DNA of 64,000 bases from assembly GCF_002631185.1 (NCBI RefSeq), contig NZ_PDNU01000010.1:124001-188000 (forward strand). Direction: 5' to 3'. The notes beneath the pieces were generated by a model. The model was not told the origin of the DNA. It searched no databases and saw nothing but the letters and a program-made list of their open reading frames with translations. This DNA is from Teichococcus rhizosphaerae (lineage in GTDB: Bacteria > Pseudomonadota > Alphaproteobacteria > Acetobacterales > Acetobacteraceae). Position numbers and translations under genes: made by a program. Shown piece after piece: positions 50,097 to 61,093 of this stretch (positions are counted from its first letter, which is position 1; each line of letters opens with the position of its first letter).

Positions 50097-51188
50097 ATGG
50101 GTGGACCGGACGGAATGCAGGGCCGCGTGGCGGTGCAGGGGCTGGTCAAGCGCTTCGGCCCCGTGAACGCCGTCGATCACGTCTCGCTGGAGGTCAGCTC
50201 CGGGGAGTTCCTCGCCCTGCTCGGCCCGTCCGGCTCGGGCAAGACCACCATCCTGATGGCCATCGCCGGGTTCGAGTATCCGGATGAGGGCCGCATCCTG
50301 ATCGGCGGCGAGGAGGTGACCTGGGCGCCGCCCAACCGGCGCAACCTCGGCATGGTGTTCCAGCGCTACACGCTGTTCCCGCATATGAGCGTGCTGGAGA
50401 ACATCGCCTTCCCGCTGAAGATGCGCGGCGTCGGCCGTGCCGAGCGCGAGGAGCGGGCCCGCGCCGCCCTGGCCACCGTGCGGCTGGGGCAGATGGGCGG
50501 CCGCAAACCTGCCCAGCTCTCGGGCGGCCAGCAGCAGCGCGTCGCCATCGCCCGCGCCATCGTCTACCGGCCGCGCGTGCTGCTGATGGACGAGCCGCTT
50601 TCCGCCCTCGACAAGAACCTGCGCGAGGAGATGCAGATCGAGATCAAGCACCTCCAGCGCGAGATCGGCATCACCGTCATCTTCGTCACGCACGACCAGA
50701 CGGAGGCGCTGACCATGGCCGACCGCGTCGCGGTGCTCGACCATGGGCGGCTGCAGCAGCTCGGCGCGCCGCGCGAGCTCTACGAGGCGCCGGAGACGGT
50801 CTTCGTCGCCGGCTTCGTGGGCGAGACGAATTTCTGCGAGGGGCGCCTCGCCCGGCCCGCCGCGCGCGGCGAGGCGGTGATGGTCGCGCTCGATGGGGGC
50901 GGGACGATGCCCGCCATCGCCGCCCAGGCGCTGCCCGCAGGCGGCCGCATCAAGGTGGCACTGCGGCCGGAGCGGCTGCGCGTCCTGCCCGCCGATGGCG
51001 AGGGCGGCACCGCCCGCGTGACGGAGGCCATCTATGCCGGCAACGCCACCACGCTGATGCTGGAGGGGCAGGGCGGCCAGCGTCTCCGCGCCCGGGTGCC
51101 CGCCGGCGCCGGGCTGCACGAGCCGCGCCCGGGCGAGGCCGTGCGCCTGTCCTGGCAGCCGGCCGATGCGCGGGCCTTTCCGGCGTGA
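50097..51188 (+). CDS. Polyamine-type ABC transporter ATPase (PotA-like)
   Basis: A 363-residue ATPase of the spermidine/putrescine/iron class: Walker A GPSGSGKT, signature [15 protein letters not shown], Walker [12 protein letters not shown] and a C-terminal TOBE domain (about 280-360). It energises uptake by the two permeases that follow. The ATG at 50097 follows GAGGGAGCCTCC. Its end overlaps the first permease (GTGA). The substrate is probably a small organic cation or amide; see the dimethylformamidase-like genes in the same operon. Confidence 0.92.
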
Positions 51189-52054
51189 GCCGCCGCCCTT
51201 CCCGCTTCCTGCTGGGCGGGCGCCGCTACAGCCCGGCGGCCAGCCTGCTGCTCGCCGCGCCCTTCCTGCTCCTGGTCGCCGTCATCTTCATCCTGCCGCT
51301 GGCGACGCTGCTGCATGAGAGCCTGTTCGTGCCCGCGCCCACCACCGCGCACTATGCCCGCGCCTTCGCCGAGCCGGTCTATCTCCGCGTCATGCTGCGC
51401 ACGCTGCGGATCGCGGCGCTGGTCACGGCGCTGGCGCTGCTGCTCGCCTGGCCGGTGGCCTGGGCGATGTCGCGCAGCCGGGGCCTGGGCCTCGCCCTGC
51501 TGGGCGCCGCCGTGCTGCTGCCGCTCTGGACCTCCGTGCTGGTGCGCACCTATGCCTGGATGGTGCTGCTCCAGCGCAACGGCGTGGTGAACCAGCTCCT
51601 GCTTCAGGCCGGCCTCGCCGACGCGCCGGTCCGGCTGCTCTACACGGAGGGCGCGGTGGTGCTGGCCATGGCGCATGTGCTGCTGCCCTTCATGGTGCTG
51701 CCCATCTATTCCGCGCTGAAGGGCATCCCGGAGGAATATTCCCGCGCGGCCCGGATGCTCGGCGCCTCCGCCTGGTCCACCTTCCGCGAGGTGACCTGGC
51801 CCCTCGCCCTGCCCGGCGTCACCTCGGGCTGCCTCATGGTGTTCCTGCTGGCGCTGGGCTTCTTCGTCACCCCCGCCCTCATCGGCGGGCCGCAGCAGAT
51901 GATGATCGCCACCCTGGTCTCGCAGCAGGTGCGGGAGATGCTGGACTGGCCCTTCGCCGGCGCGCTGGTGGGCATCCTCCTCGTCTTCGTGCTGGCCGTC
52001 ACCATAGCCTTCAAGCGCGCCGTGCGGCTGGACCGCTTCGTGGGGTCCGCGTGA
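51185..52054 (+). CDS. ABC transporter permease, PotB-like
   Basis: A 289-residue inner-membrane permease with about six segments and the EAA loop (EEYSRAARMLGASAWSTFREVTWPLALPG). Its GTG start overlaps the ATPase stop, and its stop overlaps the next permease, which shows translational coupling. It forms the channel with the PotC-like subunit. Confidence 0.92.
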   Translation: MSRRPSRFLLGGRRYSPAASLLLAAPFLLLVAVIFILPLATLLHESLFVPAPTTAHYARAFAEPVYLRVMLRTLRIAALVTALALLLAWPVAWAMSRSRGLGLALLGAAVLLPLWTSVLVRTYAWMVLLQRNGVVNQLLLQAGLADAPVRLLYTEGAVVLAMAHVLLPFMVLPIYSALKGIPEEYSRAARMLGASAWSTFREVTWPLALPGVTSGCLMVFLLALGFFVTPALIGGPQQMMIATLVSQQVREMLDWPFAGALVGILLVFVLAVTIAFKRAVRLDRFVGSA

Positions 52055-52890
52055 GCCGCCCGCGCGCCCATGGCCGCGCCGGACGGATGGCGCTGAACGC
52101 GGCGGCCTATGCCGTCACCGTGTTCCTGCTGCTGCCGACGCTGATCATCGCGCCGATGTCGGTGGGGCCGGAACGCCTGCTGAGCTTCCCGCCCAAGGGC
52201 TTCTCGCTGCGCTGGTACGCCGCCTATTTCGAGGACCGCGACTGGCTGCGCGCCACCCTCTTCAGCGCCGAGGCCGGGCTCATCTCGGCGGTCTGCGCCA
52301 CGGTGATCGGCACCATGCTGGCGCTCGCGCTGGTGCGCGGCCGGCTGCCGGGCAAGGGCCTGATCGAGCTGCTGGTGATCGGCCCCGTCATCGTGCCGCA
52401 CATCGCGCTCGCCGTGGCCATGTTCCTGGTGTTCGAGCAGCTCCGGCTCACCGGCACGCTGCTCGGCTTCGCCATGGCGCACACCGTGCTGGCCCTGCCC
52501 TTCGTGGTGTTCACCTTGCTCGCCGCCCTCTACCGCTTCGACGTGGAGCTGGAGCGCGCGGCGCTTTCCTGCGGCGCCGGGCCGCTGCGCGCCTTCCGCC
52601 ACGTCACCCTGCCGCTGATCGCGCCGGGCCTCGTCTCCGCCGCCCTCTTCGCCTTCATCATCTCCTTCGACGAGGCGGTGGTCTCCTTCTTCATCTCCGA
52701 TCTCGACCGCAAGACTTTGCCTCGCAAGATGTTCGAGGATATCGACTTCAACATCTCGCCCACACTCGCCGCCGTGGCGACCATGCTCACCGCCCTCACC
52801 ATCCTCGCGCTGCTGCTCGGCTTCGGGCTGAAGCGTGGCCTGGAACGCCGGGCGCGGGCGGCCGGCACGGCCGCGGAAGCAGGACCATGA
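52051..52890 (+). CDS. ABC transporter permease, PotC-like
   Basis: A 279-residue permease with about six membrane segments and the EAA loop (ERAALSCGAGPLRAFRHVTLPLIAPG). The segment SFDEAVVSFFIS is typical of PotC proteins. GTG start, overlapping the PotB-like stop; its end overlaps the GntR gene by four bases. Confidence 0.92.
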   Translation: MSRPRAHGRAGRMALNAAAYAVTVFLLLPTLIIAPMSVGPERLLSFPPKGFSLRWYAAYFEDRDWLRATLFSAEAGLISAVCATVIGTMLALALVRGRLPGKGLIELLVIGPVIVPHIALAVAMFLVFEQLRLTGTLLGFAMAHTVLALPFVVFTLLAALYRFDVELERAALSCGAGPLRAFRHVTLPLIAPGLVSAALFAFIISFDEAVVSFFISDLDRKTLPRKMFEDIDFNISPTLAAVATMLTALTILALLLGFGLKRGLERRARAAGTAAEAGP

Positions 52891-59762: not shown

Positions 59763-59772
59763 TGATATATCA
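59763..59772. promoter_or_regulatory. TGATATATCA operator (copy 2, perfect)
   Basis: A perfect 10-base palindrome in an AT-rich patch 25 bases before the aminotransferase ATG and just after the E1 stop. It suggests the aminotransferase has its own regulated promoter. Confidence 0.55.
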
Positions 59773-59797
59773 GAATCCGGCAATCGAGGATCGGTCC

Positions 59798-61093
59798 ATG
59801 TCGCAGGCCCTACGCCCCGAGGCGCCCAAGGGGGTGCCCCAAGGGACATCCGGTGGGAGCCTTGGCGGGAGCCCTGGCGGAACACCGTCGGACGCCGCGC
59901 TGCGCGCCCGCGCCCAGGCCGTCATTCCCGGCGGGCTCTGGGGCCACCTGAACGCGGCCCGGCTGCCGGAGGGCTACCCGCAATACTTCACCGCCGCCGA
60001 GGGCTGCCGGCTGCGCGACGCCGACGGGCGCGAATACATCGACTTCATGTGCTCCTGGGGGCCCATGGTCGTCGGCCACCGCCACCCCGCCGTCGAGGCC
60101 GCCGCCCGCCGCCAGGCCGAGCAGGGCGACTGCATGAACGGCCCCGCGCCCGTGCTGGTGGTGCTGGCCGAGCTGCTGGTGGACACCGTCGCCCATGCCG
60201 ACTGGGCGCTGTTCGCCAAGAACGGCACGGACGCGACCACGGCCTGCGTCACCATCGCCCGCGCCGGGACGGGCCGGCGCAAGGTGCTGGTCGCGCGCGG
60301 CTCCTACCATGGCGCCGTCCCCTGGTGCTCGCCCTCCCTGGCCGGCGTCACGGCCGAGGACCGGGCGCATCTCGTGGCCTTCGACTACAACGACACGAAC
60401 AGCCTCGATGCCGCCGCGGAGGCCGCGAAGGGCGACCTGGCGGCGGTGATCGTCACCGCCTTCCGCCACGATTTCGGCCGCCACCAGGAGATGCCCACGC
60501 CGGAATTCGCGCGCCACCTGCGCGCCCTGTGCGACGCCACGGGCGCCGCCCTGATCCTGGACGACGTGCGCGCGGGCTTCCGCATCGACCTCGCCGGCTC
60601 CTGGGAGCCGCTCGGGGTGCGGCCGGACCTGTCCGCCTTCAGCAAGGCCATCGCCAACGGCCACCCGCTTGCCGCCGTCACGGGGCGGGAGCGCTTCCGC
60701 CAGGCCGCGACGGAGGTCTACACCACCGGCTCCTTCTGGTGCGGCGCCGTGCCCATGGCCGCGGCCGTCGCCACCATCGGCGAGCTTCTCCGCATCGACG
60801 GGCCCGCGCATATGCGCGCCATGGGCGAGCGCCTCCGCGCGGGGCTCGACGCCCTGTCCCGCCGGTACCGCCTGCCCGTCCGCCAGACCGGCCCGGTGCA
60901 GATGCCGCTGATGATCTTCGACGACGACCCCGAATGGGCCAAGGGCGACCTGTTCTGCGCCACGGCGCTGCGGCACGGCGCCTATTTCCACCCCCGCCAC
61001 AACATGTTCCTCTCCTGCGCGCACGGGGAGGCGGAGATCGACCGCGCCCTGGAGGCGGCGGAGGCGGGCTTCCGCGCGGTGGCCGGACGGTAG
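59798..61093 (+). CDS. Class III (GSAM-like) aminotransferase
   Basis: A 431-residue PLP enzyme of the glutamate-1-semialdehyde aminomutase/omega-transaminase type: VIPGGLWGHLNAARL start, DADGREYIDFMCSWGPMVVGH, KNGTDATTACVTIAR, the PLP-binding Asp in LILDDVRAGFR and the Schiff-base lysine Lys283 in FSKAIANGHPLAAV. It moves an amino group or a 2-amino position. The start at 59798 (GAGGA upstream) excludes 22 residues of an open frame that cover the palindrome. About 25 residues at the N-terminus are Gly/Pro-rich. Its place after the E1 gene suggests handling of an amine product. Confidence 0.88.
   Translation: MSQALRPEAPKGVPQGTSGGSLGGSPGGTPSDAALRARAQAVIPGGLWGHLNAARLPEGYPQYFTAAEGCRLRDADGREYIDFMCSWGPMVVGHRHPAVEAAARRQAEQGDCMNGPAPVLVVLAELLVDTVAHADWALFAKNGTDATTACVTIARAGTGRRKVLVARGSYHGAVPWCSPSLAGVTAEDRAHLVAFDYNDTNSLDAAAEAAKGDLAAVIVTAFRHDFGRHQEMPTPEFARHLRALCDATGAALILDDVRAGFRIDLAGSWEPLGVRPDLSAFSKAIANGHPLAAVTGRERFRQAATEVYTTGSFWCGAVPMAAAVATIGELLRIDGPAHMRAMGERLRAGLDALSRRYRLPVRQTGPVQMPLMIFDDDPEWAKGDLFCATALRHGAYFHPRHNMFLSCAHGEAEIDRALEAAEAGFRAVAGR

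Follow-up and report, generated by a model that had tools for sequence, protein, structure and literature searches.

Gene content and conservation of the locus

We examined a stretch of 64,000 nucleotides from Teichococcus rhizosphaerae (contig NZ_PDNU01000010.1; hereafter the window), in which nine genes lie head to tail on the + strand at 50097-61093. When re-read from the DNA with Pfam and NCBIfam assignments, these were, in order, potABC-type genes for an ATP-binding cassette (ABC) importer, a GntR-family regulator, a solute-binding protein, homologues of the two subunits of dimethylformamidase (DMFase), here called dmfS and dmfL, a fused E1 enzyme and a class III aminotransferase (Table 1). 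All of the genes listed in a preliminary description of this DNA are present, in the order and on the single strand that it gave. Most junctions are 4-base overlaps, with the stop codon of dmfS overlapping the start of dmfL, and the gaps measure 51, 79 and 120 bases. We propose that these genes belong to a catabolic regulon under GntR control. Its substrate would be a small hydrophilic N-acylated amine, with an N-acyl vicinal amino alcohol as the likeliest candidate; we give this reading a probability of about 0.5.

The block is not a chance grouping, because it is kept in 16 other loci at 67-93% large-subunit identity. These come from a species scan (one genome per species) that yielded 17 loci, mostly from Roseomonas-like Acetobacteraceae, together with Bosea and two Rhodospirillales metagenome assemblies. 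Further loci, in Pseudoroseomonas cervicalis, Variovorax paradoxus, Agrobacterium larrymoorei and Rhizobium SSA_523, came from a plasmid collection. The Pot-type importer is linked to dmfS and dmfL in nearly all Roseomonas loci, in Bosea, in Rhizobium and in one further alphaproteobacterial family; in Variovorax and A. larrymoorei the importer is swapped to the Dpp type. The link between a dedicated ABC importer and dmf-like genes, which the preliminary description had proposed, is thus confirmed in related genomes, and the two were not found to come apart there.

Among distant members of the protein family (about 36-45% identity) in the same bacterial family, an ABC ATPase gene lies within 6 kb in at least 20 of 39 loci, against 0 of 14 controls, although these counts are rough because the marker library was small. 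The view that studied dmf loci are not built around an ABC importer therefore holds for the Paracoccus plasmid locus, which has none, but not more generally, as many DMFase-like loci adjoin ABC importers. In five related loci (L044-L048), the DMFase-like gene is accompanied by genes for a Liv-type importer and a primary-amine oxidase, an arrangement suggestive of another type of pathway for N-acyl amines. Genes of the glutamine synthetase-like and N-formylglutamate amidohydrolase kinds neighbour dmf-like genes in three plasmid loci (L097, L098 and L104), two of which also have a D-amino-acid dehydrogenase gene close by.

Table 1. Features of the locus and its flanks (positions in the window)
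Feature	Position	Strand	Basis or remark
Amidase-signature hydrolase	46191..47669	+	NCBIfam NF004815 above cut-off; adjoins regulon, membership uncertain
Penicillin-acylase family N-acyl hydrolase	47697..50000	-	Pfam Penicil_amidase E = 4e-173; divergent from potA
Operator-like palindrome GATATATC	50051..50058		Between penicillin acylase and potA
potA-type ABC importer ATPase	50097..51188	+	TIGR01187 above cut-off, ABC_tran, TOBE_2
potB-type ABC permease	51185..52054	+	BPD_transp_1, PotB-like
potC-type ABC permease	52051..52890	+	BPD_transp_1, PotC-like
GntR/FCD regulator	52887..53609	+	Pfam GntR and FCD; proposed reader of GATATATC operator
Solute-binding protein, mannopine/agropine-binder type	53661..54737	+	SBP_bac_8; best solved relative 5l9s, 158 bits
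dmfS, DMFase small-subunit homologue, 115 aa	54817..55164	+	Profile matches to 6lvb_B; predicted fold
dmfL, DMFase-family large subunit, 761 aa, predicted iron(III) amide hydrolase	55161..57446	+	DMFA2_C E = 4e-92
Fused E1 alpha/beta thiamine-diphosphate enzyme	57567..59735	+	E1_dh, Transket_pyr, Transketolase_C
Operator-like palindrome	59764..59771		Upstream of aminotransferase
Class III aminotransferase, FumI-like, 431 aa from revised start	59798..61093	+	Aminotran_3; best solved relative 6hbs
DppA/OppA-type solute-binding protein	61184..62752	-	NikA/GsiB-like family matches; operator-like site upstream
Operator-like palindrome	62844..62851		Upstream of DppA-type solute-binding protein

A predicted DMFase-type amide hydrolase and the linked importer

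The large subunit dmfL aligns over nearly its whole length with Paracoccus DMFase (6lvb_A; E = 2.4e-133, 37% identity). In that enzyme the iron ligands are Y399, Y440 and E521, H519 is essential and N547 lies within the active site (PMC7686228). These residues align with Y391, Y431, E507, H505 and N533 of dmfL, which are identical in all 73 collected homologues. The preliminary description had placed the iron site at Tyr391, Tyr431, Glu507 and His505; its numbering was right, and no ligand residue failed to align. From these sequence comparisons we predict that dmfL is an iron(III) amide hydrolase of DMFase type.

Its partner, dmfS, is a true homologue of the DMFase small subunit. A single-sequence search gave no significant match, whereas a profile built without DmfA1-type sequences found 6lvb_B only (E = 3.3e-4) and a wider profile that included Paracoccus DmfA1 found it at E = 7e-27. 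Profile-profile comparison with DmfA1-type sequences (hhalign) gave 98.7%, and the predicted fold (pLDDT 79) has 6lvb_B as its best match (probability 1.00, TM 0.6, E = 2e-3). The locus thus shares with Paracoccus DMFase (DmfA1/DmfA2, 6LVB) the two-subunit organisation, the DMFA2_C domain, the Y/Y/E ligands and the active-site His and Asn.

This agreement of both subunits and of the iron site is what a true formamide locus, in which dmfSL frees formate and a short amine from solvents such as dimethylformamide (DMF), would display, but we consider that role very improbable. Phe693, which in DMFase comes from the neighbouring subunit and constricts the pocket (PMC7686228), aligns with Thr680 of dmfL in two alignments, at a column that is variable (T in 27 and F in 8 of the 73 homologues). 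Moreover, dmfL matches N-acetyl-(R)-beta-phenylalanine acylase (8huy) as well as it does DMFase (E = 6.4e-131), with the Y, Y, H and E of the iron site aligned. Because of this replacement and this equal match, DMF is unlikely as the substrate, as the preliminary description had suspected. Genes for dimethylamine or formate were not found in the unit, the studied Paracoccus locus has no importer whereas the genes here are embedded in an ABC-fed regulon, and the regulon partners look fit for a larger carbon skeleton; the substrate is probably larger than DMF. Note that the acylase belongs to the same family with a similar score and stands about as far from dmfL as DMFase does, but that the 8HUY entry lists large-subunit-like chains only.

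Other forms of the family occur nearby and in relatives. A second DMFA2_C protein, 41% identical, is encoded on the same contig (G000:C2:64380-66578, locus L050) beside class III aminotransferases and a DppABCDF importer. Rhizobium SSA_523 encodes a short DMFA2_C protein without the lectin-like domain immediately 3' of dmfL (L094:14291-15997), and a similar short form is paired with a FumI-like aminotransferase in locus L124, an independent instance of the combination that speaks for the pathway proposed below.

The importer combines parts of two kinds. Its ATPase scores 366 bits against the polyamine ATPase subfamily model TIGR01187 (cut-off 355.6) and its permeases are PotB/PotC-like, as in the spermidine/putrescine importer PotABCD. 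In contrast, the first solute-binding protein is of the opine type: among solved relatives it scores 158 bits with the mannopine binder 5l9s, 100 with an agropine binder and 25 with PotD. It has no NCBIfam match and is not of the PotD/PotF type. A second, oligopeptide-type binding protein, also unlike the PotABCD arrangement, appears to be co-regulated. The gene described earlier as potD-like therefore does encode a solute-binding protein, but not PotD, and the assignment of the system to the polyamine type is unsupported.

We rejected a polyamine substrate on the binding protein. The ATPase and permeases would suit a version in which N-acylated polyamines enter through the Pot-type importer and are then deacylated and transaminated; however, besides the evidence of the binding protein, putrescine aminotransferases match the aminotransferase at 77-78 bits and FumI at 413, and the kinase and aldolase partners seen in relatives (see below) are ill-suited to polyamines. 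Such a version is highly improbable.

An operator-like palindrome shared by several promoters

Three promoters of the locus carry the palindrome ATATGATATATC, which is nearly absent from the rest of the genome. The sequence GATATATC was first seen by eye upstream of potA and then in front of the aminotransferase gene. A search of the window with GATATATCA gave five matches, of which two are the opposite strands of a single site, where shuffled sequence would give 0.00. The 4.65-Mb genome as a whole contains it at only four positions, namely 50051, 59764, 62844 and 24140 of the window. The match at 24140-24148, before a gene at 24155, was taken as chance because the extended ATAT flank is absent and no module gene adjoins it.

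Relatives carry the same site. We counted 43 copies of GATATATC in 19 related module loci (0.104/kb) and 5 in 72 control loci, which have lower G+C (0.004/kb); among 64 palindromes of equal composition, the next commonest had 17 sites. Because these loci are related to one another and the motif was picked out by inspection, a probability calculated from the counts is not to be read literally, and the genome-wide count is the plainer evidence. With the window included, sites lie before potA (17), the aminotransferase (16), the DppA-type solute-binding protein (10), the penicillin acylase (9), GntR (3) and the kinase (2). They occur in Roseomonas, Bosea and Rhizobium and, without dmfSL, in Variovorax (L129), whereas loci with TetR or other regulators (L091, L092, L127 and L128) have zero sites. 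Most loci with the site carry this GntR, and from this co-occurrence we infer that GntR binds GATATATC. A sigma-70 scan of the region found no promoter.

Since the palindrome marks three promoters and is nearly absent elsewhere in the genome, we regard the locus as probably a regulon of at least three transcription units. The genes are contiguous, as the preliminary description had stated, but rather than its single operon they probably form a GntR regulon under one operator that includes the penicillin-acylase homologue and the oligopeptide-type solute-binding protein. The functional unit thus probably extends past 50097-61093 at both ends. The penicillin-acylase homologue, which has no evident signal peptide, shares the 50051 site with potA, and this divergent partner is also kept in relatives. 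Homologues of the DppA-type binding protein lie close to the aminotransferase gene in relatives. Because the second palindrome sits between the E1 stop codon and the ATG at 59798, we place the aminotransferase start there; the start is probably correct, and a promoter of its own then follows. Upstream of the amidase gene, at 44549-46132, lies a gene for a further oligopeptide-type solute-binding protein, about 50% identical to a module binding protein.

The shared site also bears on whether the genes are merely neighbours with loosely related roles in general amine and amide scavenging, without a single dedicated pathway. Importers, amide hydrolases and downstream enzymes are freely exchanged among relatives, as that explanation would have it, but one rare palindrome stands at the importer, aminotransferase and second binding-protein promoters across genera, and the gene order is kept in more than 10 genomes. 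We therefore think this explanation improbable.

The aminotransferase, its partners and the proposed pathway

The aminotransferase is closest to FumI (6hbs; 413 bits, 48% identity over 396 aa, PLP lysine aligned), the next solved relative scoring 178 bits. FumI acts on a vicinal amino alcohol: in hydrolysed fumonisin B1, where the carbon next to the 2-amino group bears a hydroxyl, it transfers that amino group to pyruvate and leaves a 2-ketone (PMC2933618). The two enzymes share their class III subgroup and the PLP lysine, but the setting here is an importer/amide-hydrolase regulon instead of a fumonisin degradation pathway. The earlier idea that the aminotransferase acts on the released product, presumably the amine, is supported.

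Alternatively, the locus might degrade N-acyl beta- or D-amino acids, with dmfSL as an acylase like the 8huy enzyme and the aminotransferase yielding a 3-oxo or 2-oxo acid. The equal match of dmfL to that acylase is in keeping with this, as are the D-amino-acid dehydrogenase, alanine racemase or DSD1-type enzymes of related dmf-like loci and the distant relationship of the aminotransferase to the beta-transaminases 2yku and 4ao9. The latter score only 95-102 bits, however, far below FumI, and kinase, class II aldolase and transketolase partners would be unexpected for simple amino acids. Such substrates are possible but, in our judgement, unlikely.

The fused E1 was thought to act on the products as well. 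It does lie in the block, but it is accessory: 9 of the 17 loci from the species scan have it, and others that keep the importer, dmfSL and the aminotransferase lack it. In Shinella and Agrobacterium T29, relatives of the E1 have an AcoC-type E2 nearby (374 and 380 bits; cut-off 307), and these loci also contain the aminotransferase, a kinase and an aldolase but lack dmfSL. Because these plasmid-borne relatives accompany an acetoin-dehydrogenase E2, cleavage of an alpha-hydroxyketone by the E1 seems likelier than oxidation of an ordinary 2-oxo acid. Unlike acetoin dehydrogenase (E1 plus AcoC), the E1 here has its alpha and beta parts fused and matches no acetoin-specific model. The source genome encodes an ordinary pyruvate dehydrogenase E1 elsewhere. 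Relatives of the fused E1 outside the module (L112-L118) have mixed neighbours.

Other candidate C-C cleaving enzymes recur beside the aminotransferase. In Roseomonas rosea and four relatives, the genes for the aminotransferase and the DppA-type binding protein are separated by those for an acid-sugar kinase and a class II aldolase; Bosea, P. cervicalis, Rhizobium SSA_523, Shinella HZN7 and Agrobacterium T29 have this pair too, arranged differently. In Novosphingobium capsulatum, the aminotransferase is flanked by a PfkB kinase and a class II aldolase. With bait loci and duplicates removed, kinase and class II aldolase were found in about 11 of 30 distinct loci with the aminotransferase and in none without it. 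At L033, L086, L094 and L090 the kinase scores above the curated threshold for 3-oxo-tetronate kinase. A split transketolase replaces the E1 in L080, L086, L094 and L129. In Variovorax, a related amidase lies between the transketolase and the penicillin acylase, beside an aminotransferase homologue; because penicillin acylase and amidase occur together there, deacylation seems to be the exchangeable step.

A DMFase-type amide hydrolase, an aminotransferase suited to a vicinal amino alcohol and alternative enzymes that cut beside an alpha-hydroxyketone fit together as a scheme of import, deacylation, transamination and C-C cleavage. The A. larrymoorei locus, in which no such aminotransferase is seen, carries after dmfL a gene for a DSD1-type PLP enzyme, likewise suited to a beta-hydroxy amine. 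The substrate would have the form R-CH(OH)-CH(NH-acyl)-CH2OH or a close variant, such as a 3-amino-2,4-dihydroxy acid. It would be taken up by the ABC importer with its opine-type binding protein, and perhaps the second, oligopeptide-type one, and its amide would be hydrolysed in the cytoplasm by dmfS/dmfL, possibly aided by the penicillin-acylase homologue. The FumI-like aminotransferase would then convert the amine to an alpha-hydroxyketone. The C-C bond of this ketone would be cut by the fused thiamine enzyme in the source genome and, in relatives, by transketolase, by the fused enzyme with an acetoin-dehydrogenase-type E2, or by the acid-sugar kinase and class II aldolase, the last route giving dihydroxyacetone phosphate. 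The carbon would then enter central metabolism. Gene content, conservation, iron-site residues, small-subunit homology, the shared operator-like site and the recurrent partners are computed results, whereas each of these reactions, the binding of GntR, the direction of regulation and the substrate class are inferred.

We consider it likely that an N-acyl amine is imported and broken down here, in agreement with the preliminary description, which had proposed import and breakdown of an N-acyl or N-formyl amine; the importer, the DMFase-type hydrolase and an aminotransferase fit for the amine bear this out, whereas a polyamine character is unsupported. Whether the amine is a vicinal amino alcohol is closer to an even bet, and several observations weigh against it. 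An identity of 48% to FumI does not fix the substrate. Two loci, L077 and L080, keep the importer and dmfSL with no aminotransferase in view. The source genome has no AcoC-type E2 above the cut-off, and the source locus has neither the kinase nor the aldolase, although elsewhere the genome encodes two homologues that share the kinase's Pfam family. The aldolases of relatives resemble fuculose/ribulose-phosphate aldolases, yet none of them reaches a curated cut-off. Apart from these points, a search aimed at a pathway of the chloramphenicol type yielded nothing useful.

More tentatively, the loci could represent an undescribed route that takes N-acylated 2-amino-1,3-diols or 3-amino-3-deoxy acid sugars as substrates and is unified by one GntR operator across Alpha- and Betaproteobacteria. 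The iron(III) DMFase-type enzyme would then be one of several exchangeable deacylases, the FumI-like aminotransferase the fixed core, and the three unrelated solutions for C-C cleavage (kinase with class II aldolase, transketolase, acetoin-dehydrogenase-like E1) interchangeable.

Our findings suggest that the iron-tyrosine DMFase family, known mainly from the breakdown of a synthetic solvent, serves more widely in nature, removing the acyl group when N-acyl amines are imported and catabolised. They also suggest a natural setting for FumI-like aminotransferases, which have otherwise been studied for fumonisin detoxification. The short operator makes the regulon easy to find and to test in cultured strains of Roseomonas, Bosea, Rhizobium and Variovorax.

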